IMG/VR virus record: IMGVR_UViG_3300029910_000251 | Location: 1-26,154 of that record | Reading direction: 5' to 3' (one strand) | DNA: 26,154 bases | From: a virus | In this document: piece by piece, positions 7,401-26,118 of the stretch | Position numbering within the stretch: the first letter of the stretch is position 1 | Layout: each line of letters starts with the position of its first letter | Made by a program: the position numbers and the translations under genes | Notes under the pieces: model-generated | The model's database searches: none | What the model saw: only the letters and a program-made list of their open reading frames with translations | What the model was told of the DNA's origin: nothing

Positions 7401-10400
7401 ATATCGAGACTGTTGGAAAGGCTCAACAAAAGGCTTTGGGGGATCGAGTCGTATCCGATTTAAAGAATGGGAAAATTAACCGTTCAGAAGCCGTTGAGCG
7501 GATGCGTAATCTCGGATTTTCAGATGAAGAGATTGATCCTCATATTCCCCTCAATTTACCCGTAGATGGAGGTGCCTCAAAGGAGAAGCCTTCTCCCGCC
7601 GAACCTTCAAGCAAAAACCCCGGTGGTGCCAACGTCGGCGATGACATCTCCTTCACCTACCCCCATGCCGACAAAGGAGAAGTCAAAGCCAAGGGCGAAG
7701 TCCTTTCCAAAGGCGAGGATCATTACGAAGTAGTCGATCACGATAGCGGGGACCGCATGACGGTTCCTTTCTCGAAGGAAAACATCAACGAAAGGACCCC
7801 AAATGCAAATTCTGAAGAACATGATGCTGGGACTACGGATGCTGACGTCAAAACCGAACCCAAAAAAGAAGGTGCTACTAAAGCGCAAGAGCCCGAAGAA
7901 AAAGACGCTGAAATCCCCGGTGTCTCGCGTGAGAAAGTAGCTCCTGAGCATCAGGACGCTTACGATGTCACGGCGAAGGCCTACGATAAGTACCGCAAGC
8001 TATTCGACTACCTAGGGGTTAAATCGAAGCTGGCAAAGAATCCCGATAGCCTTGGTCTGTCCGTGACGCCTGGGAAAAATGTCTTGGAAGTCGATCCCGA
8101 GGCGATTTCCCATTCCATGAAGATTCTGGGGGGAGGGGAGGACGCACGCACACGCATTGAAGCAGCGATGGGCGAAGAGGCTCATCATCTCTTTGTCGAG
8201 CGAACGGCTCAAGACCTGGCTAAGGAGCGAGGCACCACCACGGACAAGATTTTCGGCGGAATTTGGAAGTCTCTGAGCGACGAGCAGAAGAACGCTGTTA
8301 CCAAGCAGTACGGCAAGAGCCTGGACTCGCAGAGCGAAGCTAATAAGGCACGCGAGTACATTCGGATGCTCACCCAGCTTGAGCGTGAAGGACGTACGAC
8401 CGAGATAGCGTCTCTGATGACGCCTGAGACTCGGGATATCTTTCAGCGGATGGTGGATCACCTGAAGGAATTGTTGACCGGTAAGAACCCGATTCCCGAG
8501 GCCAAAGAACTCCTTGATCGGACGAATCGTCTCTTGGATGCGGCGGAGAAGGGTGAACCTGAGAAGGTTTCTGCGGCTAAGCCCGAAAAGTCACTTGAAG
8601 CGACCGAGAAAAAGCCTACGCTTGAGTCCCCCCGCAAGCCTGTCGCTGCGGCGAAACCTGAGCCTCAAAATGGAAAAGAAGCCCCAACCAAAGAAGAAGA
8701 TGAAAAGTCTCCCCCCCCTGATTGGGCCAAGCAAGGAACTCCAAGAGACGCGGCAACGTATTTTGAGCAGGCCTCCCATTTCCTCAAAGGCAGCGGTGAA
8801 TCAGGCGAGGATGCACATGCGGGCAGCAGAACAGACAGAATAGCTTCCGAAGCCGACCGGCTTAAGGATCTTGCGGAACAGTCTGGAAAGATCATCCCCG
8901 TAGACAAGTTCAGGAATGCCCCCGCCATTCCCGGCGTAAGCATGGAGAACGCCGTCTATCACATCGGTGACAAGGCATGGAAAGTCACGAAGGGCAAGTT
9001 CTACGGATACGCTCCCGAACTGAACGAAGGCAAGGGATTCCCCGTTGATCGCGTCCCAGCAACGCCTTCGGAATACATGGATCGAATGGCGCTGGCCAAT
9101 CGGATCTTTGGCGATCATTTCAAATTCGAGGGTGTCCAGCTAGACGCCAGCGGCCATCCTCACATGGTCGTTTCTCAGCCTTGGGTTGAGAGCGCCCACC
9201 TGATGGGAATTGTTCCAAATATCAAGGCAGACGAGATTCGATCCTTGATGCAGAAGGAAGGGTTCCGAGAGATTCCTGGCGAACGTCTGAATCCCACTGG
9301 CTGGTACCGTCCTGGCGATGGCGTCATTGTCGATGACCTCCACGCAGGTAACGTCGTCAAGGAGCCCAAGGGTAAGCTCTATCCGATTGATACCATCATG
9401 GGCCGCGTCGATCCAAAGGAGTTCAAAGATCGCGGCTGGGACATGACCGATCCTCGTAATCCTGAAAAGGAAGGCGCTCCCAAAAAGCCTCCGCTGAATT
9501 GGGACGAGGAACCTAAGCGCGTTAATGCGGCCAAGCCCGATAAGGAATCTCCTGAGTTCTACAGCCAGCTAGAGCGAACGATCCAAGACAAGATGCCCGC
9601 GAAGGCTTCTGCTACCCAGATCGAAGGCATCCTAAAGGGTGGTGGAGTCAAAGCCGAGGAAATCAAGTGGTCCGGTCTGAGCGAATGGCTGGCCGATCAT
9701 CCTAACCCGACCAAGGCGGAGGTGCTGGCGCACGTTCGGGAGAATGGGACGCAGATCAACGAGACGACGCTTCGGCCTCCTGATGTCGGCGCTCCGCATG
9801 AAAATGGAAATGCAAAATACGCCCAATACCAGATCCCCGGCGGTGAGAACTACCGGGAGAAGGTCTTGTCGCTTCCAACGGCTCCGGACGCTCCCGATCC
9901 GTCCGAGCCTTGGACGATCAGCACCCGCCCCGGAAATTCGGATGCGGCCTATAAATCAAGCCACTTCCCCGAGGTCCCAAACTACCTCGCCCACATGCGG
10001 CTCAATGACCGCACGGACAGCGATGGGAGGCCCGGCACGCTGATTGAGGAGTTGCAGAGCGACCGACATCAGCAGGGACGTGAACGAGGATATACCGAGG
10101 ATGCTCCGAAAGAAGAGCCGGAGGGATGGTCTGTTTTACCTCTTCCTTCGGGAGATCATTCAGGTCGAGATGCTGGTTATGAATACCAAGTCCTTCATAA
10201 TGGAACTAGGATGGCATATGCCCGCGATCAAAACGAGGGATTGAGTGTTGCTCACCGGTTAGCGAACGGCGGAACAGGACATCTTCCCATCCCTGATGCT
10301 CCCTTCCGCAAGACCTGGCACGAGCATCTCTTTCGTAGGGCGTTGGCCGATGCGGTTGCCAATGACAAAGACTGGTTGGGTTGGACTACCGGCGATACTC

Positions 10401-13400
10401 AGGCGGATCGTTACAGTTTAGCTAAACAGGTCGATAACGTTCGAGCTTTCCGTCGTCCAGATGGGACATTCGATCTCAGTGCTAAGACGAAGGATGGATC
10501 AGGGCCGCATGATTTCGGGAATAGCATTCCGGCAGAAAAGGTTTCCGACTACATCGGAAAGGATCTCGCTTCAAAAATTGTGAATCAGCCCGATGGGTGG
10601 CATACCTATGAGGGAAATGACCTAAAGGTAGGCGGCGAGGGGATGAAGGGATTCTACGATAAGATCCTCCCGAACTACGTTTCAAAGTATGTGAAGAAGT
10701 GGGGTGGCAAGGTTGCCCGGGAAGATATGCCGATCCCTTACGAAGAGAGAGAGGATGGAAATATCGCTCGTGTTTCTCATCCGATCTGGAAGGTGGACAT
10801 AACCCCCGAGATGCGAAAGGGAGTTGAGGAAGGCCAGCCTGTCTATGCTGCAAAGCCCGAATCAGCCGAGGAAGAGAAACCTTCCGTCCATAACCGCATC
10901 TTTGGTGACAAGAAAGGCTTCATCGAAGCCGACGTTAAGCCCACCATTGAAGCGGTAAAAACCTCCTTCACTAGCGCGGCAGACGACGTAGCCAAGATTT
11001 TCGCGCCTACTTTGCGTGGCGATAAGACGGATACGGGCATTACGAAGGCTCAGGCCGCTGGCAATATCATAAGAGAAAATAATGCTCTTATGGCGAGGCT
11101 GATGGATCAGGCTCATAGTGCGCTGAAAGATGCCAGCAAGTATTTCGATGGAATTTCAATTAATAAAAACTTGGACTTCATGGACTCTATCGAGAATAAC
11201 CGGCAACTTGCTGATCCCAAACTAGAAGCCATCGCCAAGACTCTCCGCCAGATTAATAATCAGTGGAAAGAAGCCGTCAGGAATCTTCCCCGTGGGAGCT
11301 TCAAGAATTTCATCGAGAACTACTTCCCTCATGTATGGGAAGGTGGAGATGTCGATGGGCAAAGCGTTCCTGCAAAGGAGTTCCTGCGACGAGTTGAAGG
11401 CACTACGGCTTTCATGAAGCATCGGACGATTCCGACTATAGCGGATGGAATCGCCATGGGACTCAAGCCGATCACCTACAATCCGGTAGACATGATGCTC
11501 CTTCGTTGGGGGCAAATGGCTAGATACATCGCGGCTCAAAGAATATTGGATTCCCTTGATAATGAAGGTCTAGCCAAGCACTTCAGCAGCGATGCCGAAG
11601 CGCCTCCGGGTTGGACCCGCATCGACAAGCGGATTGGAACCTCAGAAGGGCCTACCGGGGCATATGACCTGACCAAACCCGGATCGCCTCCGATCAAAGG
11701 GCCAATACCCTACTACGCCCCAGATTCGGTCGCCCAAGTCATCAATAACCATCTTTCTGCCGGTCTAGCCAACAAAGGCTGGTACAAGGGCCTAGTTGGG
11801 ACGGCAAACGTGATGAATCAGGCCCAGCTTGGCTTTAGCGCCTTCCACCTGGGATTTACATCGTTTGAGGCAAGCATTTCCAGATTTGCCTTAGGAGTTG
11901 AATATGCGGCGAGAGGGAATTTAAAAGATTCAATTAAATCTTTTATTTCAACCCCCTTGGCTCCTTTGACCAATGTTGTTAAAGGCGATCTTCTCTACCG
12001 GGAGTGGATGCGCCAAGGGAAGGGCTTGGAAGCAACGAACAGGCTAGAAAAGGGCCTGGATAAGGTTCCCGGGGTTTTGGTCAATCGACCGAATGCCGAA
12101 CTGCTTTCCAGTCTGGTCGATTCAGCCATTAAGGCCGGTGGGCGAGTGCAAATGGACCCGATGTACTCGAACCATATGGCCAAGAAGATGAGCCAGGCCT
12201 TCCGCCAAGGAAACTACGTTGGAGGAATCCTCCGTTCGCCCGGGGCTCTTCTTGAGAAGGTTTCGGCTCCCATCATGGAGTACTTGGTTCCCCGGCAGAA
12301 GCTTGGCATCTTCGCCGATCTGGCCCGCATGGAGATGCAGAAGCTTGGACCCGATGCCTCTACGCAGCAGGTACGGCAAGTCATGGGAAAAGCCTGGGAC
12401 TCGGTGGATAATCGTCTCGGTCAAGTCGTCTACGACAATCTTTTCTGGAACAAGGTCACTAAGGATATTTCGCATGCCACGATTCGATCTGTTGGCTGGA
12501 ATGTAGGAGATATCAGGGAAGGCGGTGGGGGGGCATTGGACTGGGCTAAATTTGTTAAGGATATATCCACTGGAAAGTCCAAGAACGCTGAGTTTACGCA
12601 CCGAATGGCATATACGATAGCCCTTCCAACGGTTGTAATGACAACTGGAGCTATCGTTCAATATCTTATGACCGGCAAAGGCCCCGAGGAACTTAAGGAC
12701 TACTTCTTCCCGAAGACCGGGGATACGACGCCTGATGGCCATAATGTGCGTCTTGCGCTTCCTTCCTACATGAAGGACGTGTTCGCTGTGGCCAATAACC
12801 CGACGCATACGGTAACGTCCAAGCTTCATCCCATGTGGTCTGCCCTGGCCGAGATGATGCAGAACAAGGACTTCTACGGCACCGAGATTCGCCATGCGGG
12901 AGATCCCCTGGTTAAGCAGGTGGCTGAGGAGCTTGGGTTTGTTGGCAAGAACTTCGCTCCCTTTGCGGTCACTGGCGGTATGAAGTTGCATCAATCGGGA
13001 GCTTCTCCGGCCAAGCAGGTGTTGCCGTTCTTTGGAGTGACCCCTGCACCGGCCTACGTTGATCAGACGCCTGCCGAGCGTATCGCTCACCAAATTCAGC
13101 AGGACAAGATGCCGAATCGCACCAAGACCCAGGCTGACTTCGACAAGAACCAGCTTAAGGGACAGTTGACCAATCTATCCCGCCAAATGGCCAAGCCCGG
13201 CATTTCGGATGAGGACAAAGACGATTTGCGTAAGCAGTCGGAGAAGCTTCTAGCCGATGGCACCAAAAAGGGGACCATTACGCCCAAAGAGGTTCCTTTG
13301 ATTATGAAGGAGGCGAGAATCAACTCCAACCTCTCGCCCCTGCAACGCGCCTTCAAGTCGATGGACTACGACGAGGCCTTAAAGGTCTGGGAGGCTGCCA

Positions 13401-13543
13401 ACAAGAAGGAAAAGGCCATGATTGGACCGATGATGCGCCATAAGGTCATCTCGGCGCAGAATCAGGGGAGGCAGGTAGATCAACCGATCGTTAAGGAGCT
13501 GCTTGGTCAACGCTCGCCTGAGGACTTGGCCGAAGCGAAGTAG
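4481..13543 (+). CDS. Giant 3020-residue phage polyvalent protein with kinase-like domain, probable ejected virion protein
   Basis: The GTG start at 4481 follows an AGGGA-type Shine-Dalgarno and the previous stop by 9 bp. Layout: Gln/Ala-rich coiled-coil-like region (about 45-90 and 190-300); Pro-rich linker (about 320-400); hydrophobic Gly/Ala segments (about 545-690); short helical module (about 990-1022); small beta-rich module (about 1050-1100); EEAHHLF at 1232-1238, a possible zinc-peptidase site; kinase-like domain (about 1485-1650) with Lys1501, catalytic-loop DDLHAGN at 1618-1624 and Asp1637 in the DFG position; phage module with LIEELQSD at 1854-1861, IPDAPF at 1937-1942 and DITPEM at 2106-2111; C-terminal region (about 2140-2870) resembling large polyvalent-protein associated domains such as LPD38, with GWNVG near 2672 and a probable membrane span near 2712-2731. 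Polyvalent proteins of this kind are thought to enter the host with the DNA. Individual activities are inferred from motifs. Confidence 0.9.
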   Translation: MPIYSPFDVVSRRQQQGQQPAADPFSSFLESPQVDPSQLETNYQGEQAEALKQQQAAQKAQDAQDKQDAADQAQAQEKQDEVDAKTYAASGAITRPSAYPTASGKTSIRQVPVTDENGNPTYKPGDQGVAYDENGQPWRQIRRADGSWDSVDPFSLGYAKVSIDSQGKAIATPHGKDASTLGTQDVSSNADIYNDPQVADEVQKREQAVVGKTAKEQIENGVVADAETARQAHQDAISAAQQANLDYSSQAADLKNSLDPESQQKLKDLQSARDQARQGVIDAQKAAESKFAEARKAKADPVGYLKSKNQAQQDAIDQSQDNPQVPPLLSPDGQPTVNGPTPDALPDVGQNGAVMASTPPASGPQPGSEPPSPGAAPTPAPVTPSAPTPDQPSSVADGIRNAPMGSGPLGSVTPEDAMGNSSLLSGPMSAPYWQGRINLQTAQGEDASEIPQGLWKNVYNGSKAALLKGVGSVSQGAQTVAGWFAGGGADDSWPRQAMAAVDHAFGTQMTQGADALRSKLYARANQTADAANTVADQLIKTDPNSVAAKVGTMIGAAPVFLDPLMMGVAGVGMGQQQAKAQGATDSQAVTAGLQTGLVDATIGKILGPLGHLSDRLKPVLADGIGGFLAKALGHTAVSSARGSVEMTAFNTANNAIANANAPEKTDVLNGWEDSAITGAIQNALFGAGGMALRQGRNEALRGGLDANKIAGNTAKVLNSISDKFNGIDQSQLDPTQKAAFKAQLIKQLDISPDVAAQVYAHADAGAQAKDAIRSALQDNAASAQGGDASVVESNKKAASSVLDAVDQLHQNTAQIQRMGRTDEGRKQLQIINQYNATLPEGVPKANAVEIGAATSIAPKDTIPTPAHFQAAQEIAAIQDPTQKTAVLAAVKAASGRALTSDETNLLSQVTESNGGKPVAYEQDGKWIFTDAGLNRIREIAPDAAKLLAESEQHQLEAPEPEPAPANQKEKTAKDIETVGKAQQKALGDRVVSDLKNGKINRSEAVERMRNLGFSDEEIDPHIPLNLPVDGGASKEKPSPAEPSSKNPGGANVGDDISFTYPHADKGEVKAKGEVLSKGEDHYEVVDHDSGDRMTVPFSKENINERTPNANSEEHDAGTTDADVKTEPKKEGATKAQEPEEKDAEIPGVSREKVAPEHQDAYDVTAKAYDKYRKLFDYLGVKSKLAKNPDSLGLSVTPGKNVLEVDPEAISHSMKILGGGEDARTRIEAAMGEEAHHLFVERTAQDLAKERGTTTDKIFGGIWKSLSDEQKNAVTKQYGKSLDSQSEANKAREYIRMLTQLEREGRTTEIASLMTPETRDIFQRMVDHLKELLTGKNPIPEAKELLDRTNRLLDAAEKGEPEKVSAAKPEKSLEATEKKPTLESPRKPVAAAKPEPQNGKEAPTKEEDEKSPPPDWAKQGTPRDAATYFEQASHFLKGSGESGEDAHAGSRTDRIASEADRLKDLAEQSGKIIPVDKFRNAPAIPGVSMENAVYHIGDKAWKVTKGKFYGYAPELNEGKGFPVDRVPATPSEYMDRMALANRIFGDHFKFEGVQLDASGHPHMVVSQPWVESAHLMGIVPNIKADEIRSLMQKEGFREIPGERLNPTGWYRPGDGVIVDDLHAGNVVKEPKGKLYPIDTIMGRVDPKEFKDRGWDMTDPRNPEKEGAPKKPPLNWDEEPKRVNAAKPDKESPEFYSQLERTIQDKMPAKASATQIEGILKGGGVKAEEIKWSGLSEWLADHPNPTKAEVLAHVRENGTQINETTLRPPDVGAPHENGNAKYAQYQIPGGENYREKVLSLPTAPDAPDPSEPWTISTRPGNSDAAYKSSHFPEVPNYLAHMRLNDRTDSDGRPGTLIEELQSDRHQQGRERGYTEDAPKEEPEGWSVLPLPSGDHSGRDAGYEYQVLHNGTRMAYARDQNEGLSVAHRLANGGTGHLPIPDAPFRKTWHEHLFRRALADAVANDKDWLGWTTGDTQADRYSLAKQVDNVRAFRRPDGTFDLSAKTKDGSGPHDFGNSIPAEKVSDYIGKDLASKIVNQPDGWHTYEGNDLKVGGEGMKGFYDKILPNYVSKYVKKWGGKVAREDMPIPYEEREDGNIARVSHPIWKVDITPEMRKGVEEGQPVYAAKPESAEEEKPSVHNRIFGDKKGFIEADVKPTIEAVKTSFTSAADDVAKIFAPTLRGDKTDTGITKAQAAGNIIRENNALMARLMDQAHSALKDASKYFDGISINKNLDFMDSIENNRQLADPKLEAIAKTLRQINNQWKEAVRNLPRGSFKNFIENYFPHVWEGGDVDGQSVPAKEFLRRVEGTTAFMKHRTIPTIADGIAMGLKPITYNPVDMMLLRWGQMARYIAAQRILDSLDNEGLAKHFSSDAEAPPGWTRIDKRIGTSEGPTGAYDLTKPGSPPIKGPIPYYAPDSVAQVINNHLSAGLANKGWYKGLVGTANVMNQAQLGFSAFHLGFTSFEASISRFALGVEYAARGNLKDSIKSFISTPLAPLTNVVKGDLLYREWMRQGKGLEATNRLEKGLDKVPGVLVNRPNAELLSSLVDSAIKAGGRVQMDPMYSNHMAKKMSQAFRQGNYVGGILRSPGALLEKVSAPIMEYLVPRQKLGIFADLARMEMQKLGPDASTQQVRQVMGKAWDSVDNRLGQVVYDNLFWNKVTKDISHATIRSVGWNVGDIREGGGGALDWAKFVKDISTGKSKNAEFTHRMAYTIALPTVVMTTGAIVQYLMTGKGPEELKDYFFPKTGDTTPDGHNVRLALPSYMKDVFAVANNPTHTVTSKLHPMWSALAEMMQNKDFYGTEIRHAGDPLVKQVAEELGFVGKNFAPFAVTGGMKLHQSGASPAKQVLPFFGVTPAPAYVDQTPAERIAHQIQQDKMPNRTKTQADFDKNQLKGQLTNLSRQMAKPGISDEDKDDLRKQSEKLLADGTKKGTITPKEVPLIMKEARINSNLSPLQRAFKSMDYDEALKVWEAANKKEKAMIGPMMRHKVISAQNQGRQVDQPIVKELLGQRSPEDLAEAK

Positions 13544-16157: not shown

Positions 16158-16595
16158 TTAGATGAGAAATTTTGCTCCTCCGGGGATCACGTAATCGCAG
16201 GACAAACGCCCATCTTTCAAATTTCCACCAGCGTCTAGGAAAGCCTGTTGAGTGAGGTCGATGCCATGGTAGGTGCTTTCAGCGGGCCCTACGTCGATGA
16301 GCGGAACCGTGATCGAAGATCCTCCGTACGGTGTAACGATGATTGGCGTCTTCCAGGGGATATTCGGAAGAGGAGTTCCAGCCGTGGCTTTGCATTTGCC
16401 CCAATCAGGCACAGGCAATGCACATCCCAATATGGTCGGATTCCCTTTGGTATTGATCCCGCTGGCCGTGCTTCCGTCATCCTGTGGATCATTATCACCC
16501 CCGAACCAAGTGGCAATCTGTCCTCGAACGAGAAGATCAGGGCCATCTACGATGACGTGGAAAAACCAACCCGGCGAGGTGATGATCTGGATCAA
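16158..16595 (-). CDS. RlpA-like double-psi beta-barrel protein, candidate cell-wall enzyme
   Basis: The 145-residue frame uses a TTG start at 16595, overlapping the lipoprotein stop (TTGA), with AAGGTGG about seven bases upstream. The protein shows GQIATWFGG (25-33), a Cys-containing ILGCALPVP (55-63), a WKTPIIVTPYGG strand pair, PLIDVGP (98-104) and GIDLTQQAF (111-119). This order matches the double-psi barrel of RlpA and related proteins, where the Asp of the [IV]xD-x-GP motif (here Asp101) is important for peptidoglycan cleavage. Some family members cleave naked glycan strands, others only bind. No signal peptide is evident, so export would need the holin or another route. As no other lytic enzyme is visible, it is the best endolysin candidate in the window. 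Confidence 0.68.
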   Translation of the reverse strand: MIQIITSPGWFFHVIVDGPDLLVRGQIATWFGGDNDPQDDGSTASGINTKGNPTILGCALPVPDWGKCKATAGTPLPNIPWKTPIIVTPYGGSSITVPLIDVGPAESTYHGIDLTQQAFLDAGGNLKDGRLSCDYVIPGGAKFLI

Positions 16596-16930
16596 GGCAC
16601 AACCACCTTGTTCTCAGCAGCCCACCGATCCAAGGATTCAAACTGCTGTGCCTGCTGGCCGGAGATCAGATAGACCTTGCGCCCATACGAAGTCCAACTC
16701 TGCAAGGGAACGTCGCCCAAGGGGGGATGTAGCTTGCTCTTGTTCGCCAGATAGTTGAAGACGAACACGTAACGCTCGGTCACATAGACGCCACGGCTAT
16801 CGCCCTTGACGATCCCTGCGTCTCGGCGATTTCCGTCCCAACCGATCTTGTTGGGCTCAACCGGATTGGGCGCTACGGTCCCCGCGCACCCAACCAAACA
16901 AAGGCTAAGAGCTACGAATACGAAGCGCAT
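16592..16930 (-). CDS. Outer-membrane-type lipoprotein, phage-conserved family
   Basis: Begins MRFVFVALSLCLVGCAGT: a short basic end, a hydrophobic core and a lipobox LVGC with the lipidated Cys at residue 15. The mature part contains a WDGNRRDAGIV segment, a VTERYVFVFNYLA segment and KLHPPLG, which I recall as a pattern (GN..(N/D)(S/A)GI(I/V)...VT...PPL) from small lipoproteins encoded by phages and prophages. After processing it would be 98 residues anchored in an envelope membrane. It overlaps the double-psi gene by 4 bp and the preceding Ala-rich gene by 26 bp. An envelope role in lysis or exclusion is possible. It lacks the Pro-rich body typical of outer spanins. Confidence 0.72.
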   Translation of the reverse strand: MRFVFVALSLCLVGCAGTVAPNPVEPNKIGWDGNRRDAGIVKGDSRGVYVTERYVFVFNYLANKSKLHPPLGDVPLQSWTSYGRKVYLISGQQAQQFESLDRWAAENKVVVP

Positions 16931-17197: not shown

Positions 17198-17689
17198 TTA
17201 AGCCGCAGGGGCGACGGCAGCAACAGGAGTTGCGCCAGTCGTGGCAGCGTCAGCGTAGGTTGCAGCACCGGCCTCCACGCCAGCAGCAAGGGCCTCGAAG
17301 AACGCAATCGCCTTAGCAGCATCCGCATCTTTTTCGAGAGAGGCGTAGAGCGAGGCATACTCCTTGCCCAAGGCCGTAACTACGGAGGCCAGGAGGGCGC
17401 TTCCATCGGTGAACTTATTCAGGTAGTCCGTGAACACCGCAACGGTGGGAATGGTCCCATCGGCGAGCGTATGGACGCCGCTGGCGACGGACCACACGTA
17501 GTCAGCCACCTTAGTCCGAGTGGCCGGATCGCTCACCTCAGCCTGAATGAGGACGCCAGTAACAATGCTGGCGACCTCCTGGGTGACAGTCTGGCCGACG
17601 CTTGAACCGAGAATATTCTCGATAAAGTGGGCGGCAGCGAGGGCTTCGTGGCCAACGGTGGCGGCGATCTTGGAGAGAATATTGCTCAT
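17198..17689 (-). CDS. 163-residue Ala-rich helical protein
   Basis: Begins MSNILSKIAATVGHEALAAAHFIENI and continues with amphipathic, Ala/Val-rich helices. The region about 38-80 has TKVADYVWSVASGVHTLAD, and the C-terminus is an Ala/Thr/Pro tail (ATPVAAVAPAA). No signal peptide is evident. The hydrophobic moments may allow membrane association. The ATG overlaps the stop of the holin-like gene by 4 bp (ATGA), so the two are translationally coupled. I do not recognise the family. It may be a membrane-associated partner of the lysis proteins, but this rests on position alone. Confidence 0.62.
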   Translation of the reverse strand: MSNILSKIAATVGHEALAAAHFIENILGSSVGQTVTQEVASIVTGVLIQAEVSDPATRTKVADYVWSVASGVHTLADGTIPTVAVFTDYLNKFTDGSALLASVVTALGKEYASLYASLEKDADAAKAIAFFEALAAGVEAGAATYADAATTGATPVAAVAPAA

Positions 17690-18042
17690 TTGATTTCAGT
17701 GGGTTTGGATTGGGCAGTTTCGGTGGAGGTAAAACCGCCCGGAAGGACGGTTGATTGAACGGAAAGAGTTGAAGGAACGGCTGGAATCGGAGGAGAGCCA
17801 AGGAAGGAGTCGAGACGCCGCTTGAGATCGAGGAGGATCAAATTTCGATAGTGGGACCAGAAAAGAGATGCGGAGGCAAATCCCCCCGCAAGAAGAAACC
17901 AGCCAACCGTGACACCCCAATCAACCGCCCCTTTCGCCACTTTTGCATCGACCCATCCATGGCTCACTAAGGGGGTAACGCAGACGATCAATAGGGCTCG
18001 GATCAAAGATCCAACGAAAAGCTGAACAGGCGAAAGGTTCAT
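17686..18042 (-). CDS. Two-span membrane protein, holin candidate
   Basis: This 118-residue protein has membrane segments at about 7-29 and 43-62, separated by a short polar turn with Lys residues. After them comes a basic stretch (LKRRLDSF) and a Ser/Thr/Pro tail. Two segments, a short size and a charged C-terminal part resemble class II holins, which permeabilise the inner membrane for lysis. The gene lies in a run of membrane and envelope genes and is coupled to the next gene (ATGA). Alternatives are an antiholin or an envelope-remodelling protein. The other small membrane gene nearby could equally be the holin. Confidence 0.65.
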   Translation of the reverse strand: MNLSPVQLFVGSLIRALLIVCVTPLVSHGWVDAKVAKGAVDWGVTVGWFLLAGGFASASLFWSHYRNLILLDLKRRLDSFLGSPPIPAVPSTLSVQSTVLPGGFTSTETAQSKPTEIK

Positions 18043-18785: not shown

Positions 18786-20393
18786 TCAGGGAGCTACTGC
18801 CGTCAAATGGACGTAGCATTGCACCGACGTATTGAACTGAAGCAACGTCAGGCTCAAAACAGCCACCGTGATCGGGGAAGTCTCAAAGACCTGAATGGTC
18901 ACCGCCGTGTTGCTAACCGCCGTGATCTGGACGTTGTAGGAATTGGTCGTGCTGGAACTCTCGCAGGAAGCGGTGATTACAGGCGTCACGCCTCCACCAT
19001 AGGCCGTTGGAAACGTCCAAGTGTAGGTTCCGGTCGTGGTCGTCTGGGCGCGGATTCGCTGAACGACGGGGCTTGTGGCCGTGATCGTATTGTTAGGCCA
19101 AGTTCCGGTGATTGTAAGGCCTGCTCCGGCAGTCAACCCAGGGCTGGCGGTTCCTGTACCTCCATTGGCCACCGAAAGGACTGTGCCAGACCAGTTGGCG
19201 TTGTTGATCGTGCTGGCCGTGGCAAGGGAACCAAGCCCCAGATTTGTCCGCGCTGTCGAGGCGCTGGCCAGATCGGAAAGGTTATTCGCCTTTTGCAGGG
19301 ATGTTGCCAGAACGGCGGAGGCCGCTCCCGAAGCGTCATAAGCGGTCGCTGCAGTTGTCGCTGCGGTGCCAAGTCCCAAATTGGTTCGAGCGGTCGCGGC
19401 ATTGGCCAAGTCGCTCAAGTTATTGGCCGACTGAAGGAAGTAGGCGACATTTTGCGATGCAGCCGTGCCGAGCGTCGGCGCTCCTGTCAGTTTGGAGTAG
19501 GCAAGACCGGTGATCCACGCCGGGTTGGCGTAGCTCCCAGAGGTTAAGACGATGGGGTCAGCAATCCCGTAGCCAGACAGAGAAGTCGGCGTCCCCGTGA
19601 TCTTCGACCATGCCAAGGCCGTAATCCAGGCAGGATTGGCATAGCTGGCATCCGTCTCCGCAACATTGGAAAGACCGACCGTCAGTGTGCCACTCGAAGT
19701 GATTGGGCCTCCTGTAACGGTGACATGAGAATCCGCACCGGCCCCGGAGATGCTGGTTACAGTTCCGCTTGGGATCGTAGGTGTGCCAGTGATCTTGGAG
19801 TACGGGAGGCTGACGATCCATGGGGGATTCGTGTAGCTGCTATTGGTGGAAACGCCGTCTGTGATTCCGTAACTGGAAATCGTGGTCGGAGTCGAACTGA
19901 TCGAACTCCAAGGAATTCCGGTAAGATGCGCTCCGTTGGTTACGGTCAAAGCAATCGAGGATGACCCACTTCCATATCCATCGCCACTAATCGTGATCGT
20001 TTGGTTGGCCGTCAAAAATGAGGGAGCGCCGCTTACGTCTGCCCATGGGAAAGGACCCGCTATTGGAGCATAGCGCGCATCGGATGCCGTCTTGGTGTAG
20101 GCATCCGTTATGCCATAGCCCGAGACGGATGTTGGGGTGCTGGTGATCGCGCTCCACGGATAGGTTGAAGGCGCATTGGTCATTCCTCCGCCCATGGCTA
20201 CAATCTGCGCTGGAGTGTAAGAAGTAGGAAGAATGCTGGCGTCAAATCCCCAAATGTTGCTGGCTACCCCAGCGATAGGACGACCGGAAATGCCCGATCC
20301 ATCCGGCCTGACTTGGTTGACATCCACTTCATTTGGATTCAGAGCCAAAGCCAAAGCGCAGGAAGAAAACAGAAATAGGAGAGATATTTTCAT
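18786..20393 (-). CDS. Tail-fibre-like protein with repeats and an N-terminal signal peptide
   Basis: I use the ATG at 20393, because MKISLLFLFSSCALALALNP reads as a standard Sec signal peptide with an Ala-x-Ala site. The frame also allows an ATG at 20402, three codons upstream. The body has the repeats of phage fibres: SGYGITD units (about 94-100 and 178-182), a duplicated YANPAWITxLAxSKxTG segment (about 250-305), two NNLSDLAxAxTARTNLGLG segments (about 322-392) and VANGGTGTASPGLTAG. The C-terminal 110 residues look like a beta-rich tip (GTYTWTFPTAYGGG). Fibres of this type trimerise and bind host-surface glycans or proteins. A signal peptide is unexpected in a virion protein, which is assembled in the cytoplasm. 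The gene follows adaptor A with no gap. Confidence 0.82.
   Translation of the reverse strand: MKISLLFLFSSCALALALNPNEVDVNQVRPDGSGISGRPIAGVASNIWGFDASILPTSYTPAQIVAMGGGMTNAPSTYPWSAITSTPTSVSGYGITDAYTKTASDARYAPIAGPFPWADVSGAPSFLTANQTITISGDGYGSGSSSIALTVTNGAHLTGIPWSSISSTPTTISSYGITDGVSTNSSYTNPPWIVSLPYSKITGTPTIPSGTVTSISGAGADSHVTVTGGPITSSGTLTVGLSNVAETDASYANPAWITALAWSKITGTPTSLSGYGIADPIVLTSGSYANPAWITGLAYSKLTGAPTLGTAASQNVAYFLQSANNLSDLANAATARTNLGLGTAATTAATAYDASGAASAVLATSLQKANNLSDLASASTARTNLGLGSLATASTINNANWSGTVLSVANGGTGTASPGLTAGAGLTITGTWPNNTITATSPVVQRIRAQTTTTGTYTWTFPTAYGGGVTPVITASCESSSTTNSYNVQITAVSNTAVTIQVFETSPITVAVLSLTLLQFNTSVQCYVHLTAVAP
19218..19430 (-). repeat. Tandem protein-coding repeat (NNLSDLA...NLGLG), two copies
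   Basis: Two copies of a 25-residue unit with core NNLSDLAxAxTARTNLGLG are separated by about 21 residues. This is a common shaft repeat of phage fibres, and DNA-level divergence shows it is not a recent exact duplication. Confidence 0.75.
19473..19646 (-). repeat. Fibre shaft repeat (YANPAWITxLAxSKxTG), two copies
   Basis: Two degenerate copies of a unit with core YANPAWITxLAxSKxTG encode part of the fibre shaft. A related, weaker copy (NPPWIVSLPYSKITGTPT) lies upstream. Confidence 0.7.
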
Positions 20394-20395
20394 GG

Positions 20396-20812
20396 CTACC
20401 ATCCGGTTTCAAGGCCAACTCGCCCCCATCCGTTTCCATTGGTGTAAACGTAGTAGTAGTTTGCGTCGTAAGCCTCATCCCCAGGATTTCCAGGCGACGT
20501 AGATTGAGTGGGAGCATGAACCCAAGGGGCGCGGAAAAGCGTTCCAGGTTCGACTACTTCCAAAAGACCATTTCCATTAATGCCGATAATTCCAATCCCT
20601 TTCGGAAAGTTGTTAATCAAGTTCACCATCTGCTGCGCCACTGGTTGAGACATGAGAACGTTATTCTGCATGTCAACCAATTCGCGGGCGAAGGTGGATA
20701 CGGTCTGCTCGTCACAAGGGAGCTTGCCGCCAAAGATGACAAACGCTCTGGTAAACAGTTTCGAATTTTCCGATACCGGAGCTGCCTTAACTTTCTTTTT
20801 GAACCACCACAT
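20396..20812 (-). CDS. Adaptor-like protein A, paralogue of the gene before the SGNH fibre
   Basis: A perfect AGGAGG (20820-20825) lies seven bases before the ATG at 20812. The 138-residue protein starts MWWFKKKVKAAPVSEN (basic). At residues 18-56 it has KLFTRAFVIFGGKLPC followed by TFARELVDMQNNVL, which matches residues 15-54 of the 147-residue gene at 23163-23606 at about 15 of 39 positions (K-L, A, F-G, V-[SA]TF, R, VD, NN-L). The remainder is Gly/Asn-rich and Tyr-rich near the C-terminus. It ends 2 bp before the second fibre's ATG. A small protein immediately upstream of its fibre, in two related copies, suggests a connector or assembly partner for that fibre. No family is recognised. Confidence 0.68.
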   Translation of the reverse strand: MWWFKKKVKAAPVSENSKLFTRAFVIFGGKLPCDEQTVSTFARELVDMQNNVLMSQPVAQQMVNLINNFPKGIGIIGINGNGLLEVVEPGTLFRAPWVHAPTQSTSPGNPGDEAYDANYYYVYTNGNGWGRVGLETGW

Positions 20813-20819
20813 AGCTAAT

Positions 20820-20825
20820 CCTCCT
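20820..20825 (-). promoter_or_regulatory. Perfect AGGAGG Shine-Dalgarno
   Basis: AGGAGG (transcript sense) lies seven bases upstream of the ATG at 20812. It is the best ribosome-binding site on the minus strand and decides the start of the adaptor-like gene. The 38-bp spacer between this gene and the SGNH fibre gene holds nothing else evident. Confidence 0.8.
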
Positions 20826-20850
20826 ATTTCAAAATAATCGAAATATCAGT

Positions 20851-23166
20851 TTAAAGACCCACCGAAATATCCCAAGTGTAGGTAGTCGTCGCAGCGAGTG
20901 CCGTAGTCCCCGCAGTCACGGTTATTGCCGTAGTGCTTGACGACGGGAACACCATCGTAACTCCTGACAAGGCTGAAGCATTCGCGTTGGTCGGCGTCAT
21001 CGAAACGATAGGCGCACTCGAAAGTGTCGCGTTGAAACTGATAGTGAACACGGTAGCCGATAAAGTCGGCAGCGTTCCAGTCGTCAACGAGACATGATAG
21101 CCGGTCTTGAGAATCGTGATGGTTGGCGCGGAGGCTCCCGTTCCAGCCCCAGCCCCCGCAGTTGCGGTAGATGCCGATAAGCTCGGCTGAATCAGGGCAA
21201 TGGCATTCGCTATTGCGGTTGTAGTAAAGGCCGTGCTGGCGGGCGCGGTGGTGTTGTTCCCGGCGGTCTGAGTGGCGACCGTGACCGTGGCCCCCGTCAG
21301 GTTCAGGGTGCCGGTGGTTCCGGTCAGAACGGCGGCGACCTGGTTGGCGGTTGCGGCAGCCGATAAGGTTCCTCCGCTATCAGCGTAGGGAATACCGCTG
21401 ATGATGGTCGATTGGTTAAGCGATCCTTTTACATTCCAGGTGTAGGTAGAGGTGTTCCAGCCACTCAACCAGGCACCCACGTTTCCATTGGATTCGTCGT
21501 AGAGGATGTAGCGGTAGGCGTTCCCCGCTGCGTCCGATCCGGCAAACCAGCGGGCCGCCCCGGCACTCCGGCAATCGACGCCCGCCAGCGACGTATTGGC
21601 ATACTGATTGATCTGGAGATTACCTTGTATATTTAGCGTATAAACATTCGTATTCCAACCTGTCAGAAACATCGCAGTATTACCATTTCCCTTGTCCCAA
21701 AAAAGCAAGCGATGGGCGTTTGCGTCATCATTCACGACCTCCCACCGATCAACTCCTGCGCTCTTGTAATCCACGCCGACTTGCCCGGTGGCAGCAGCGG
21801 CATAGCATGTGAAGATATTGCCGTAAAGCTGCGCCCCATAACCCGCACCGGAACTGCCTAGGCCAGTGACCACAAACGCCAAGTAGGCCCCGTCGTCCGA
21901 AATATAGAAATTCCAGTTGTTGCCCGATCCCTGCTCGCCGACTTGCCAGCGTGAGACGCCAGCAGACCTCAGATCAATAACCGGGCCAGCCGTTGCAAGG
22001 GTTGTATCCAACGTGATGTTATTCCAGATATGGTTAGTAGTGACTGCCGGGCTAGAGTAAAAAACACTGCCGGAGAAAACCGGGAAGGCTCCCGTCTGCA
22101 TCTTGGATTCCAGGTCTTCCTCCAGAAGCTTATGTCCCTCAACCGTGGGATGCGTCCCATCCTGGAAGTAAATGCCGTCCGAATAATCCGGTAGGACGTA
22201 TTCCCGGTTCCAGACGAAGGAGCAAGGAATCTGTCCGGTACGGATCGCTTTATTAATGTTCAACCGATAGGTTTCCTGTTGAGCAGATAAGGCAGACCCA
22301 GGAAGAATGTCTTCCAAGACAACTGTGAAACCATCGGCCAGAGCCGCCGTGGTATACGTCGTCAGGGCGGAAATGATCTGGGTATCCGTCTGAGGAGTGC
22401 CGCCGCCAGCGCCTCGAAGATCGTTGATCCCGGCCCCGACGATCAACCAGGACTGGGGACCGCCATCGCCACCATTAGCGGTAGGACGATGAGGATAAGG
22501 ACCTGTTAAAAATCGATCAGTGATGTTGTTTCCGGCATTCGACCCCGCCGCGATCCACGACCCGGAAACCGCCGTATTGCGAGTGGTTCCATGATTGAGC
22601 GCAAACTTATCGGCAGCAAAAAGCGCCTCGAAACACTGGCTTGAGGGCGTGGGGAGTCCATAACCAAAAGTGATCGAATCTCCCTCGAAGGTGAAGGCGC
22701 AGCCGGTGAGGCCGATGGTGCCCTTGTCGTAGGGGATGATGTTGTTGGCGTCGGCCTTCACCAAGCCGCTCGCGGCATTGGTGGTGTTGCCCTGAATCGT
22801 CACGGAGGCCGGGAGCGTGCTGAGGGGTGCGAATCCGCTTCCGTCGAGCTTCAGGAGGCCGTTAGCCGAATTGGTGATGTTTCCAAGGGTCGTCACCGTA
22901 CCGCTACTTCCGACCGTAAGTACATCGCCATTTCCCATCGTAATCGTTCCTGGCGCAAAGATAGGGAGATTGGCGATCAATGGTTGCAAGTTGGTAAGCG
23001 ACCAATTCTTAGTTGCCGCATCCTGGGCGCTAGTTGGATCAGCCAGATTATTGATCTGCTGGCTATTGGCGTTCAACGGAGTTGTTAGAACGCCATTGGA
23101 AATTGGGAATGAAGCCCCAAGGCAGATTGAAGCTGAAATAAAGAAAGCCAAGATGAAACGTATCAT
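20851..23166 (-). CDS. Tail fibre with embedded SGNH/GDSL hydrolase domain and signal peptide
   Basis: The 771-residue protein starts MIRFILAFFISASICLGAS, a signal-peptide-like segment. Residues 31-55 (NNLADPTSAQDAATKNW) are the classic fibre neck motif. Residues 96-145 hold two GNxTNxAxGLxKxD units. An SGNH hydrolase domain spans about 150-355: GDSIT with nucleophile Ser164, Gly202 in NTAVSGS, GIND with Asn248, and DGTHP with Asp336 and His339. All four blocks of the family are present, so it is probably active. Three RSAGxxRW repeats (about 398-584) form a shaft, followed by ASTAFTTTAIANA and a beta-rich tip (680-771, SAPIV...TYTW). SGNH enzymes remove acetyl groups from surface polysaccharides, a known phage strategy to reach receptors. 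It overlaps the preceding gene by 4 bp (ATGA). Confidence 0.87.
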   Translation of the reverse strand: MIRFILAFFISASICLGASFPISNGVLTTPLNANSQQINNLADPTSAQDAATKNWSLTNLQPLIANLPIFAPGTITMGNGDVLTVGSSGTVTTLGNITNSANGLLKLDGSGFAPLSTLPASVTIQGNTTNAASGLVKADANNIIPYDKGTIGLTGCAFTFEGDSITFGYGLPTPSSQCFEALFAADKFALNHGTTRNTAVSGSWIAAGSNAGNNITDRFLTGPYPHRPTANGGDGGPQSWLIVGAGINDLRGAGGGTPQTDTQIISALTTYTTAALADGFTVVLEDILPGSALSAQQETYRLNINKAIRTGQIPCSFVWNREYVLPDYSDGIYFQDGTHPTVEGHKLLEEDLESKMQTGAFPVFSGSVFYSSPAVTTNHIWNNITLDTTLATAGPVIDLRSAGVSRWQVGEQGSGNNWNFYISDDGAYLAFVVTGLGSSGAGYGAQLYGNIFTCYAAAATGQVGVDYKSAGVDRWEVVNDDANAHRLLFWDKGNGNTAMFLTGWNTNVYTLNIQGNLQINQYANTSLAGVDCRSAGAARWFAGSDAAGNAYRYILYDESNGNVGAWLSGWNTSTYTWNVKGSLNQSTIISGIPYADSGGTLSAAATANQVAAVLTGTTGTLNLTGATVTVATQTAGNNTTAPASTAFTTTAIANAIALIQPSLSASTATAGAGAGTGASAPTITILKTGYHVSLTTGTLPTLSATVFTISFNATLSSAPIVSMTPTNANASALSGVTMVFPSSSTTAITVTAGTTALAATTTYTWDISVGL
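21415..21975 (-). repeat. Three fibre shaft repeats (RSAGxxRW units)
   Basis: Three degenerate units, each starting around [DRC][YLC][RK]SAG[VA]xRW and running about 40-65 residues to an FVVTG/FLTGW/LSGW end, encode the fibre shaft after the hydrolase domain. Confidence 0.7.
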
Positions 23167-23606
23167 GATAAGGCTCCAAGGAAGAAAACGGGCACCTTCA
23201 GCGTATACAGGTTGCTGTCAGGCGGTCCGTTCAGGTTGAAAGAGAATCCGTCAGTCGTGAGATTGAAGATTCCAGCCACCGCAAGGGCGTAGCTGGAAGA
23301 GGACGGAGCCAAGATGACAGGAGATCCCAAAGCTGGGACCGAAGGCCAATTCATGCCCGTGATTTGTCCGCTGGTTTGGCCTTGAACTAGTGGGAAGCTG
23401 ACGTATTGCATCAGTGCGAAGACCGCTCCAGCGGGCAATACGCTGACATCGAACAAAAGGTTGTTGTTAAGATCGACGATACCCCGCGAGAAGGTCGCCA
23501 CTACCGGCTCTTGCGCCGCGCCGAAGTTCCCGTTGAAAAGCTTGTAGGCGTATCCCAATAGCTTTTGCGGAGAAGGGATCGGGAAAGTTCCAAAGGGATA
23601 ACCCAT
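23163..23606 (-). CDS. Adaptor-like protein B, paralogue of the gene before the second fibre
   Basis: I place the start at the ATG at 23606 (MGYPFGTFPIPSPQK), one base after the upstream stop, rather than at the in-frame ATG at 23693, which would overlap the preceding gene by 86 bp. The 147-residue product has KLLGYAYKLFNGNF followed by VVATFSRGIVDLNNNLL, matching adaptor A over about 39 residues. The rest is beta-like (ALMQYVSFPLVQGQTSG, then a Ser-rich turn) and ends VPVFFLGALS. Its stop overlaps the SGNH fibre ATG, so the two proteins are made together. By position and duplication, a fibre-connector or chaperone role is plausible but unproven. Confidence 0.7.
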   Translation of the reverse strand: MGYPFGTFPIPSPQKLLGYAYKLFNGNFGAAQEPVVATFSRGIVDLNNNLLFDVSVLPAGAVFALMQYVSFPLVQGQTSGQITGMNWPSVPALGSPVILAPSSSSYALAVAGIFNLTTDGFSFNLNGPPDSNLYTLKVPVFFLGALS

Positions 23607-23607
23607 A

Positions 23608-23928
23608 TCAGTCGTTTGGTTGGTTGGCTGCTTTAGCCTCTTCGGCCTCGGCAACCTTGGATTCGCGATCCACGTCGCGCTTCTCGGAGGCAACGATGTC
23701 GAGGACTTCGTTTAAGAGCCAAATCCTCCGGCGCAAATATATCAGCTCTTCGGCAGACAGGTCTCGCGTCTCAAGGAGCTTTTGCGTGTCAGCAGCCTTG
23801 ATTCCCTCAACCTTCGTCATGATCCACTTGACCTCTTCGCTGTTGATGAGGGCGCTAAGGCGCTTTATCCGAAGAGCCAAAGAGGCCCGCTTGGAAGTCG
23901 GATCGGCGTTTTCGAGAATGCGTGCCAT
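23608..23928 (-). CDS. 106-residue helical protein downstream of portal
   Basis: Starts MARILENADPTSKRASLALRIKRLS, 3 bp after the portal stop. It is charged and helix-rich throughout, with a stretch EELIYLRRRIWLLNEVLDIV (about 60-79) and an acidic/Ala tail (SKVAEAEEAKAAN). It probably forms a coiled coil or helical bundle. Head-completion or scaffold-type proteins often sit here. Nothing in the sequence identifies which, and the family is not recognised. It lacks membrane spans and signal peptide. Confidence 0.6.
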   Translation of the reverse strand: MARILENADPTSKRASLALRIKRLSALINSEEVKWIMTKVEGIKAADTQKLLETRDLSAEELIYLRRRIWLLNEVLDIVASEKRDVDRESKVAEAEEAKAANQPND

Positions 23929-23931
23929 GGC

Positions 23932-26118
23932 TTAAATGGAAGGAGGGACGGGCTCGGCAGGCTGACCCGAGCTATCGGTTGGAGGGGGCGTACTGGGTTG
24001 TGCGCCGGGCTGAGGCGTGGCGGCAGCCATGGCCGCTTGCTGTTGAGCGGCGGCGATCTCTTCAGGAGTGGGAGACGGGAGCGCCTTGTCGGCCTGCTGG
24101 ATGTCCATCGACTTCAGGCGGGCAATCAGGAAGTCACGGACCAAGAGCTTGATCTGGGGGGGATACCCCATGTAGGTCAGAACGATTTGCGTCGCCTGTT
24201 CGTTCTGCTCGTTGATCTGGTCGCCACGGGTCAACGTGAGCTGAAGCGCCACGGTGAACTTCATGGCCTCGACCTGCGTCTTGTTGATGATGCCTTCCTT
24301 CGTCTCGCTTGCGTCGTTGTAGGTGAAGGACTCGGTAGGCGACATGTAGGCCACGGCGGTCGCGACGCCTGCCTTGGTGGTGTCTTCGAGTCCCTTCTTG
24401 CAGCAGATGGCCTTGAGGGCATAAGCCTCGTCACCGCTGCGCTCGATGGCCTGGATGCCGTACTTGAGCTTTGAACTGGGAAGCTGGGACAGCGTGTCGC
24501 CGCCAGGAGAAAGATTCCCCGTGGAAGCCTGCGACTGCTGCATGAACATCTTCATGAGGTCGATGCCCCCGTCACTCAGGGCCGGACCGTCAATCGTGAT
24601 GATGGCTCGCTCGGGATCTTTCCCGGGCTTCAGCGTATGGAGCGTCTCTCCGGGCTGTGGAGGCCGTTCATCCCACCCTTCACAGGCTTCCCGGTCGTAG
24701 AGGCGGAACTTACCAGCAATGGAGTTGTCCCAAATCTGGCGATTCAGGAAGTAATCAATCGTCTCCTGGTTGTGCTTGTTGAGCTTGTATTCCGAGGAGC
24801 CGTACCAGCGGTTCTTGACCGGGTTGATGCGGACCACTCGGAAAGGACGAAGAACGCCAGGAGCGACCGTGTTGGCCGTGTAATCGAAGGAATAAGCGAA
24901 TCGATTCTTGAGATCGATGGTGATGACGATCTCGCGCAGGCGTCCATCCCCAATGGGATCGATGTTCGTGTAAACCTCCGCCATGCCCGTGCGGAGGACG
25001 TACTTATCGCTGGCATCGTGCGAGGTTTCGCCGTCGTAATGAACCGGCTTATCCTGCTCGGATTGCGCTTCGGAAGAGGCGTAGGCCAACTTCTTCAGGT
25101 TCTCCATCAGTTCGAGGAAGAACGCCTTTTCCTGGGGATCGAACTGCGTGTCGTCTACATCAGGCCCAGCGTACTGCTCAACCACTTCGGTAACGAAGCG
25201 GTCGTACTTATGGGCGATCAGAGGAGCTTCTTGGATGTCCTCGACGTTGAGCGGGCAGATGAAGTCCCGATGGTTGATGCCGTGGAAGTCAGGGCCAGCG
25301 TAGTTGACCTTGTGCATCTCGTAGGTCGTACGCTGGAACTCCGCATCCGGCGGGATGATGGTCTGCGGGTCTTTCTGGGGAACCTGCACCATCTTGGTCG
25401 GGTTCATCCCGATCATCTGCCCCGCCTTTTGCAAGAGTCCCATTTCCTCAGGGTCCATGGGGACTTCCTGCTCGATCAGAACGTCATCATGGTAGATCGG
25501 CTCGCCCAAAGTCGTTCGGATAGGCTCTTGGTCAGGACCAACGAGCACCGTGTCCGTCTCCATGAAGAACTCGATGTCCTCACGGTGAGCGATCTTGACC
25601 ACGCGCTCTCCGACGACCGCAGCCATCTCAATCGCGTCTTCTAGGGCATCGTGGAGATTCGATTGGCCCAGCTTGAAAGCGCCCCAGTCCTGAAGCTTGT
25701 TGGCATCATCCGGCGTCTGATCGTTGCGGATAGGGGTGATCGAGAAAAATGGATCGGTACCTAGGTAGTCCTTGGTAAGGCGGGCGATGATCGGCATCGT
25801 GATCCGCTTGGACTGGTTGAAGGAGACGTTCGACTTCTCGTAGATGCTTCCCGCCTGTGCGCGGTGGTAGAAATCGTTGTCATGCTCCTCAAGCCAGTGG
25901 TCCCGATGACGACACCACTTGTCCATGTCATCGGAGTACTTCTTGATGGTTTCGATGGCGAACTCGACGACTTGCTTGAGCTGGTCCCGCGTGAGGACGA
26001 GGGAACCGCCAGGAGAGCGGAAGGGCGTATCTACGTCAGCCGCCTGCTCCGACGCATTCTTTGCGGCGGTGACTTCGATATTGCGGGCGGCGTCTGCCGA
26101 TAAAGCCAGCGTGGACAC
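23932..26118 (-). CDS. Portal-like (head-tail connector) protein
   Basis: The GTG start at 26118 is preceded by an in-frame TAA 12 bases upstream. The 728-residue protein has features of portal subunits: a helical N-terminus, then a conserved-looking block SKRITMPIIARLTKDYLG (about 103-120) with a DPFFSITP strand, a mid-region NRWYGSSEYKLNKHNQETI (about 436-454) that resembles the wing/stem region of portals, and a QSQASTGNLSP loop. The last 50 residues are Pro/Gln/Ala-rich and disordered. Portals form a 12-subunit ring at one capsid vertex, through which TerL packages DNA. Here the gene leads the minus-strand operon and is followed by the 106-residue and fibre genes. The call rests on length, motif style and context. 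Confidence 0.76.
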   Translation of the reverse strand: MSTLALSADAARNIEVTAAKNASEQAADVDTPFRSPGGSLVLTRDQLKQVVEFAIETIKKYSDDMDKWCRHRDHWLEEHDNDFYHRAQAGSIYEKSNVSFNQSKRITMPIIARLTKDYLGTDPFFSITPIRNDQTPDDANKLQDWGAFKLGQSNLHDALEDAIEMAAVVGERVVKIAHREDIEFFMETDTVLVGPDQEPIRTTLGEPIYHDDVLIEQEVPMDPEEMGLLQKAGQMIGMNPTKMVQVPQKDPQTIIPPDAEFQRTTYEMHKVNYAGPDFHGINHRDFICPLNVEDIQEAPLIAHKYDRFVTEVVEQYAGPDVDDTQFDPQEKAFFLELMENLKKLAYASSEAQSEQDKPVHYDGETSHDASDKYVLRTGMAEVYTNIDPIGDGRLREIVITIDLKNRFAYSFDYTANTVAPGVLRPFRVVRINPVKNRWYGSSEYKLNKHNQETIDYFLNRQIWDNSIAGKFRLYDREACEGWDERPPQPGETLHTLKPGKDPERAIITIDGPALSDGGIDLMKMFMQQSQASTGNLSPGGDTLSQLPSSKLKYGIQAIERSGDEAYALKAICCKKGLEDTTKAGVATAVAYMSPTESFTYNDASETKEGIINKTQVEAMKFTVALQLTLTRGDQINEQNEQATQIVLTYMGYPPQIKLLVRDFLIARLKSMDIQQADKALPSPTPEEIAAAQQQAAMAAATPQPGAQPSTPPPTDSSGQPAEPVPPSI

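Follow-up and report, generated by a model that had tools for sequence, protein, structure and literature searches.

Both tail-fibre-type proteins of the phage analysed in this study, fib1 and fib2, start with a predicted Sec signal peptide, and in at least six unrelated loci multiple fibre genes of the phage carry one. Tail fibres are taken as made and attached in the cytoplasm. We give roughly an even chance to the reading that fib1 and fib2 are receptor-binding fibres that are Sec-exported, processed and joined to virions at or after lysis. The wider proposal, that in several unrelated groups of tailed phages, including that of the window, fibres leave by the host Sec route, are processed and trimerise beyond the cytoplasm, and reach finished virions only at or after lysis, is put forward tentatively.

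Predicted signal peptides on the two fibres

The window spans one IMG/VR record in full (26,154 bases). Its minus strand carries a run of portal, g22, g21, fib2, g19, fib1, g17, g16 and g15, followed by small exported proteins (Table 1); g16 and g15 are membrane proteins. Both fibres are included in this late structural run, which holds portal and lysis genes on one strand. The plus strand encodes the terminase together with a polyvalent protein of 3,020 aa, which may be injected along with the DNA. The lipoprotein g12 has a related counterpart in a relative phage (L134:17800-18132; BLASTP E 2e-6); the two phages are otherwise unrelated, and in both the gene lies downstream of signal-bearing fibres. 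Possibly, this type of lipoprotein is a spanin or a receptor-blocking lipoprotein. In searches of phage records, neither the two fibres nor the portal gave a match, and TerL reached only ~21-27% among the matches listed. A TerL scan of viral contigs gave no relative of the window phage, and a host search with TerL against 396 Acidobacteriota genomes gave distant matches only.

Table 1. Positions of the window features discussed in the text (slashes mark predicted cleavage sites).
Feature	Position	Strand	Evidence or remark
Portal protein	23932..26118	minus	phrog_1216 portal, E 1e-10
g22	23608-23928	minus	with portal, heads the gene run leading into the fibres
g21, 147 aa, no signal	23163..23606	minus	precedes and overlaps fib2; paralogue of g19
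fib2, 771-aa fibre with SGNH hydrolase	20851..23166	minus	Pfam Lipase_GDSL_2, E 3e-8, above cut-off
fib2 predicted signal peptide, MIRFILAFFISASICLGA/SFP	23113..23166	minus	rule passed; site by eye
g19, 138 aa, no signal, not a fibre	20396..20812	minus	directly before fib1; phrog_17312 tail protein, E 1e-4
fib1, tail-fibre-type, 535 aa from coupled ATG	18786..20393	minus	phrog_2282 tail fiber, E 3e-13
fib1 predicted signal peptide, MKISLLFLFSSCALALA/LNP (continues LNPNE)	20343..20393	minus	scorer 14.5, rule passed
g15, holin-like membrane protein, downstream of fibres	17686..18042	minus	Phage_holin_10, E 0.005, below cut-off
g12, small lipoprotein (MRFVFVALSLCLVGC), downstream of fibres	16592..16930	minus	scorer pass
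3,020-aa polyvalent protein	4481-13543	plus	Kinase-PolyVal domain at 1528-1640

The original prediction had placed the two fibres in the span 18786-23166, which holds both of them and also takes in the signal-free, non-fibre gene g19; its 538-residue frame for fib1 is corrected here (Table 1). fib1 has shaft repeats (SxTPTxxSxYGITD and SYANPAWIT..WSKITGTPT motifs) and is 41% identical to the fibre of another IMG/VR phage (G002), which is likewise signal-bearing. Its start ATG at 20393 lies 2 nt after the TAG stop codon of g19; an alternative in-frame ATG at 20402 would give the start MVAMKIS. After the signal follow ~60 residues of no recognised kind, and an N-terminal virion-attachment domain was not found in fib1.

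In fib2, whose start overlaps the end of g21 as ATGA, the N-terminus from the ATG at 23166 reads MIRFILAFFISASICLG(A)/SFPIS. The neck motif NNLADPTSAQDAATKNW is located at residues 39-55, ~20 residues after the 17-18 residue signal, with no virion-attachment domain between the two. It is followed by an SGNH hydrolase at 162-347 with all blocks present (GDS162, GxND as GAGINDL from 244, and DGTHP336) and by C-terminal repeats. The neck motif is common to 48 viral loci; no PHROG match was obtained for fib2, and no close relative was found among phage records and the motif relatives in viral contigs. An AlphaFold model of fib2 (pLDDT 36) was too poor for a fold search.

Signals were scored with a home-made von Heijne-type matrix, built from 24 E. 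coli signals and combined with rules for the n-, h- and c-regions. Both fibres passed the rule, with a basic n-region, a hydrophobic core and small residues at -3/-1, confirming the signal-like starts that had been predicted. For fib2 the site was placed by eye, as for a few relatives, the scorer's own best site (after residue 28) being implausible. Among the other gene models of the window only the g12 lipoprotein passed, and g10 looked exported but failed the strict rule. The rule was passed by 0.8% of random N-termini and by 1.5-1.9% of the sequences made by shuffling each fibre's residues. Shuffle score P values were 0.007 for fib1 and 0.054 for fib2, and therefore each fibre alone is only moderately significant. 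As a baseline of real fibres, 148 distinct phage-fibre N-termini were gathered via shared neck, shaft or spike modules; four passed the same rule, and these stem from three phage groups in which most fibres, or all of them, bear signals. Thus, signals are rare among phage fibres.

Starts that are hydrophobic by chance, or miscalled start codons, confined to the window, could be suspected from the marginal score of fib2 alone. However, translational coupling to the preceding gene makes both starts credible, and the fib1 relative at 41% identity keeps its signal and bears signals on all three of its fibres; we regard this as the least probable explanation. The claim that signals on two fibres of one phage are not due to chance is supported by the baseline and by the signal-bearing cassettes of relatives. 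Homologues lacking the hydrophobic start had been named as evidence against the prediction. Most proteins that share the shaft or neck are indeed signal-free, but these share modules only, and neck-motif relatives with a whole N-terminus have a longer region before the neck which is absent from fib2, where the signal occupies that place. In the G002 fibre and in further cassettes the signal is kept.

Signal-bearing fibre genes in other phages

The nearest fib1 relative is encoded by a 48 kb IMG/VR phage (G002/L051) with signals on all three fibre/spike genes: a beta-helix spike (MKKLLSFLLLASVALG/ANVQV), a shaft fibre (MKKILLFAFLLPVLVLG/QTVYP) and a Gly-rich fibre (MKALRLLLALAIAALCCA/STQQI). 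That the mature spike starts as a common MANVQI-type fibre N-terminus received no support from HMM searches. A prophage of Fibrisoma montanum (Bacteroidota; L146) has seven consecutive signal-bearing fibre-type genes, including SGNH and beta-helix proteins. Cassettes with two and three signal-bearing genes were found in Bacteroidota genomes (L238 and L241), with three in a metagenomic locus (G003), and with three, two and two in Bryobacterales (Acidobacteriota; L139, L148 and L274), L274 being a second Bryobacterales prophage with the trait. Signal-free tail proteins served as queries in the retrieval of L238, L241 and L274; the same retrieval also gave L239, L240 and L242, whose fibres have none. 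No signals were detected on the fibres of six Bacteroidota phage isolates (B40-8, P2559S, 6H, RAP44, P12024L and BS-TP2), including a P12024L fibre at a comparable gene position. These isolates rule out that fibre signals are universal in Bacteroidota phages, and the trait is therefore patchy; all cases observed so far in this analysis come from prophages or uncultured phages. The terminase of OQ791282.1, a record with the name Shigella phage Henu10, resembles those of Riemerella phages, and the record may be mislabelled.

In a family of freshwater phages, defined by a shared mature N-terminal domain and matching 480 viral contigs, the rule was passed by 77 of 89 distinct N-termini (80 best loci plus earlier ones). 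In its fibre2 class, Lys at position 2 (61/61), Ala at -1 (60/61) and Ala at -3 (58/61) are nearly invariant; as the pattern used to collect this set included Gln, the constancy of Gln there is not evidence. dN/dS in this class was 0.52 for the signal and 0.05 for the mature part. At the DNA level, the 5' ends of fibre2 genes (L187, L189, L211, L218, L317-L395) showed a pS of 0.13 in the signal-coding stretch vs 0.515 in the mature part, a conservation which perhaps reflects recombination or a constraint on translation start. Fibre1 and fibre2 of one freshwater phage have a common mature N-terminal domain that begins at the cleavage site, as expected for a docking domain.

Bacteroidota signal peptidase I substrates carry Gln at +1 in 71% on average (PMC5837995). 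With the E. coli-trained scorer, whose training set has Gln at this position in 2/24 signals, Gln was found at +1 in 16/19 Bacteroidota-type cassette genes and in 66/89 N-termini of the freshwater family. The window fibres, with sites A/L and A/S, have no Gln at +1. Within one phage the signals are unlike each other beyond the signal rules.

These data bear on the option, raised in the original prediction, that the hydrophobic start is an uncleaved structural anchor or plug in the virion and merely resembles a signal. A short fibre has to be attached by some device, and fib2 offers none besides its hydrophobic start; in one class of relatives, a basic and amphipathic extension precedes the hydrophobic part. 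However, a docking peptide should conserve its sequence and not A-x-A/Q, whereas the signals differ among fibres of one phage, A-x-A is kept and the fibre2 signal evolves faster at the protein level than the mature part. Moreover, Gln stands where the Bacteroidota signal peptidase expects it, which favours real, cleaved Sec signals over an anchor, and the mature domain begins at the site. We consider an anchor improbable.

Host surface proteins have the same shaft motif as the fibres and also bear signals. Long secreted proteins with the phage-fibre YGITDG/YANPAW shaft motifs were observed in Elusimicrobia genomes (L142-L145, L147), and some cassette genes could be surface adhesins. Such shared motifs in signal-bearing surface proteins of Elusimicrobia and Bacteroidales would fit a recent capture of host adhesins, with the signal as inherited baggage that has no role for the phage. 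This is very unlikely, since baggage should decay, whereas signals occur on multiple genes in at least six unrelated loci and are under purifying selection (dN/dS 0.52).

Proposed export and docking of the fibres

The sequences show the signals, how rare these are on fibres, that they extend over entire fibre cassettes of unrelated phages, and that relatives have cleavage sites of the host type. Export of the signal-bearing fibres is well supported by inference, and their incorporation into virions is plausible. Cleavage is inferred along with export; docking on the virion, including an adaptor role of g19 and g21, would be a further step. If the fibres are both exported and parts of the virion, they must join it at or after lysis, or cross by a route that is not known. 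In the proposed route, fib1 and fib2 would be late products, each translated in coupling with a short preceding gene whose cytoplasmic product may be its adaptor. They would pass the Sec translocon and be cleaved by the host signal peptidase I. The mature fibres would fold and trimerise in the periplasm, apart from the virions assembling in the cytoplasm, and upon cell lysis would meet the freed virions and dock. g19 and g21 are candidate fibre-specific adaptors, a proposal based on their position, their paralogy (BLASTP E 3e-7, 44 aa aligned) and a single weak match to a tail-protein family. In viral contigs, the search for their relatives gave one distant match only, and an AlphaFold model of g19 with g21 (pLDDT 39) was too poor for a fold search.

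Alternatively, the proteins might be exported and processed but not be part of the virion. They could then act at the surface of an infected or lysogenic host or within its periplasm; for example, the SGNH esterase and spike lyases might strip the receptor or mask it, which would spare progeny the loss on debris and block superinfection. The signals and Q-rule sites, the enzymatic SGNH, beta-helix and lectin domains, the shaft repeats common to host surface proteins and the missing N-terminal region of fib2 relative to its neck-motif relatives are all compatible with such a role, and outer-membrane modification was proposed for five signal-bearing genes of Porphyromonas gingivalis phages (PMC10367356). 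Surface decoration and a decoy or superinfection-exclusion function, as originally suggested, are conceivable. The gene content of freshwater phages, however, argues for virion fibres. In two long records (G1055 and G1054), terminase, tape measure, head protease and portal genes are followed by fibre1, fibre2 and a third signal-bearing gene and then by holin and amidase, and no gene other than the signal-bearing ones is recognised as a fibre. The Peptidase_S74 chaperone, which is typical of phage fibres, was present in all seven fibre2-type proteins scanned. In addition, cassettes hold up to seven different fibres, beyond the needs of blocking, and the genes are located in late structural or lysis runs. 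A non-virion role therefore appears less likely, though it deserves serious consideration. The original options assume that an exported fibre is a non-virion protein; both long records point instead to export followed by docking on the virion. G1055 also encodes an 811-aa tail protein, which could be the real receptor binder. In the freshwater phages, a third signal-bearing protein (~200 aa, QDVVxDTVYIQKQG...) is encoded between fibre2 and holin (L189:5466-6098, L211:2315-2917 and L402:16394-17017) and gave no family match.

If export of a whole fibre set followed by docking is true, it would mean a split assembly, with particles inside and receptor-binding parts outside until lysis brings the two together. 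Such a route would account for how fibres with enzymatic domains stay out of the cytoplasm and would let free fibres act on receptors before release. Host-type signal cleavage also offers a sequence mark for fibres in poorly annotated Bacteroidota and Acidobacteriota phages, and export would also affect how such fibres should be expressed in the laboratory.

Comparison with known systems

The window fibres resemble T7-type (gp17-like) and shaft/neck fibres in the neck motif (NxADPTSAQDAATKNW), the shaft repeats and the enzymatic or tip domains. In neck-motif relatives a signal-free region of ~50-190 residues precedes the neck, whereas in fib2 the neck follows closely on the signal. In the open-licence literature, no paper was found that describes signal peptides as a feature of tail fibres in general. 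Virion proteins with Sec signals are known from filamentous phages, whose pIII and pVIII are joined to the particle after membrane insertion. However, filamentous virions are extruded through the membrane, whereas the window phage, with its portal and terminase, is a tailed phage for which cytoplasmic assembly is expected.

Q-rule substrates of signal peptidase I have a K/R start, a hydrophobic core and A-x-A/Q, as in the Bacteroidota-type fibre cassettes, whereas the Gln is absent from the window sites; the text describing them does not mention phages (PMC5837995). In a survey of phage DGR targets, phage-encoded targets had no signals, which was taken as a mark of phage origin (PMC6199706). 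These targets are receptor-binding-type proteins, as proposed for the window fibres, but the latter are signal-bearing. The closest published parallel is that of P. gingivalis phages (proposed Nixviridae), in which five genes of unknown function bear signals whose cleavage exposes Gln; these signals were read as an adaptation to the host Sec/SPase I system and the proteins as outer-membrane modifiers (PMC10367356). Whereas those genes lack an assigned function, the signal-bearing genes described here are recognisable fibres and spikes.
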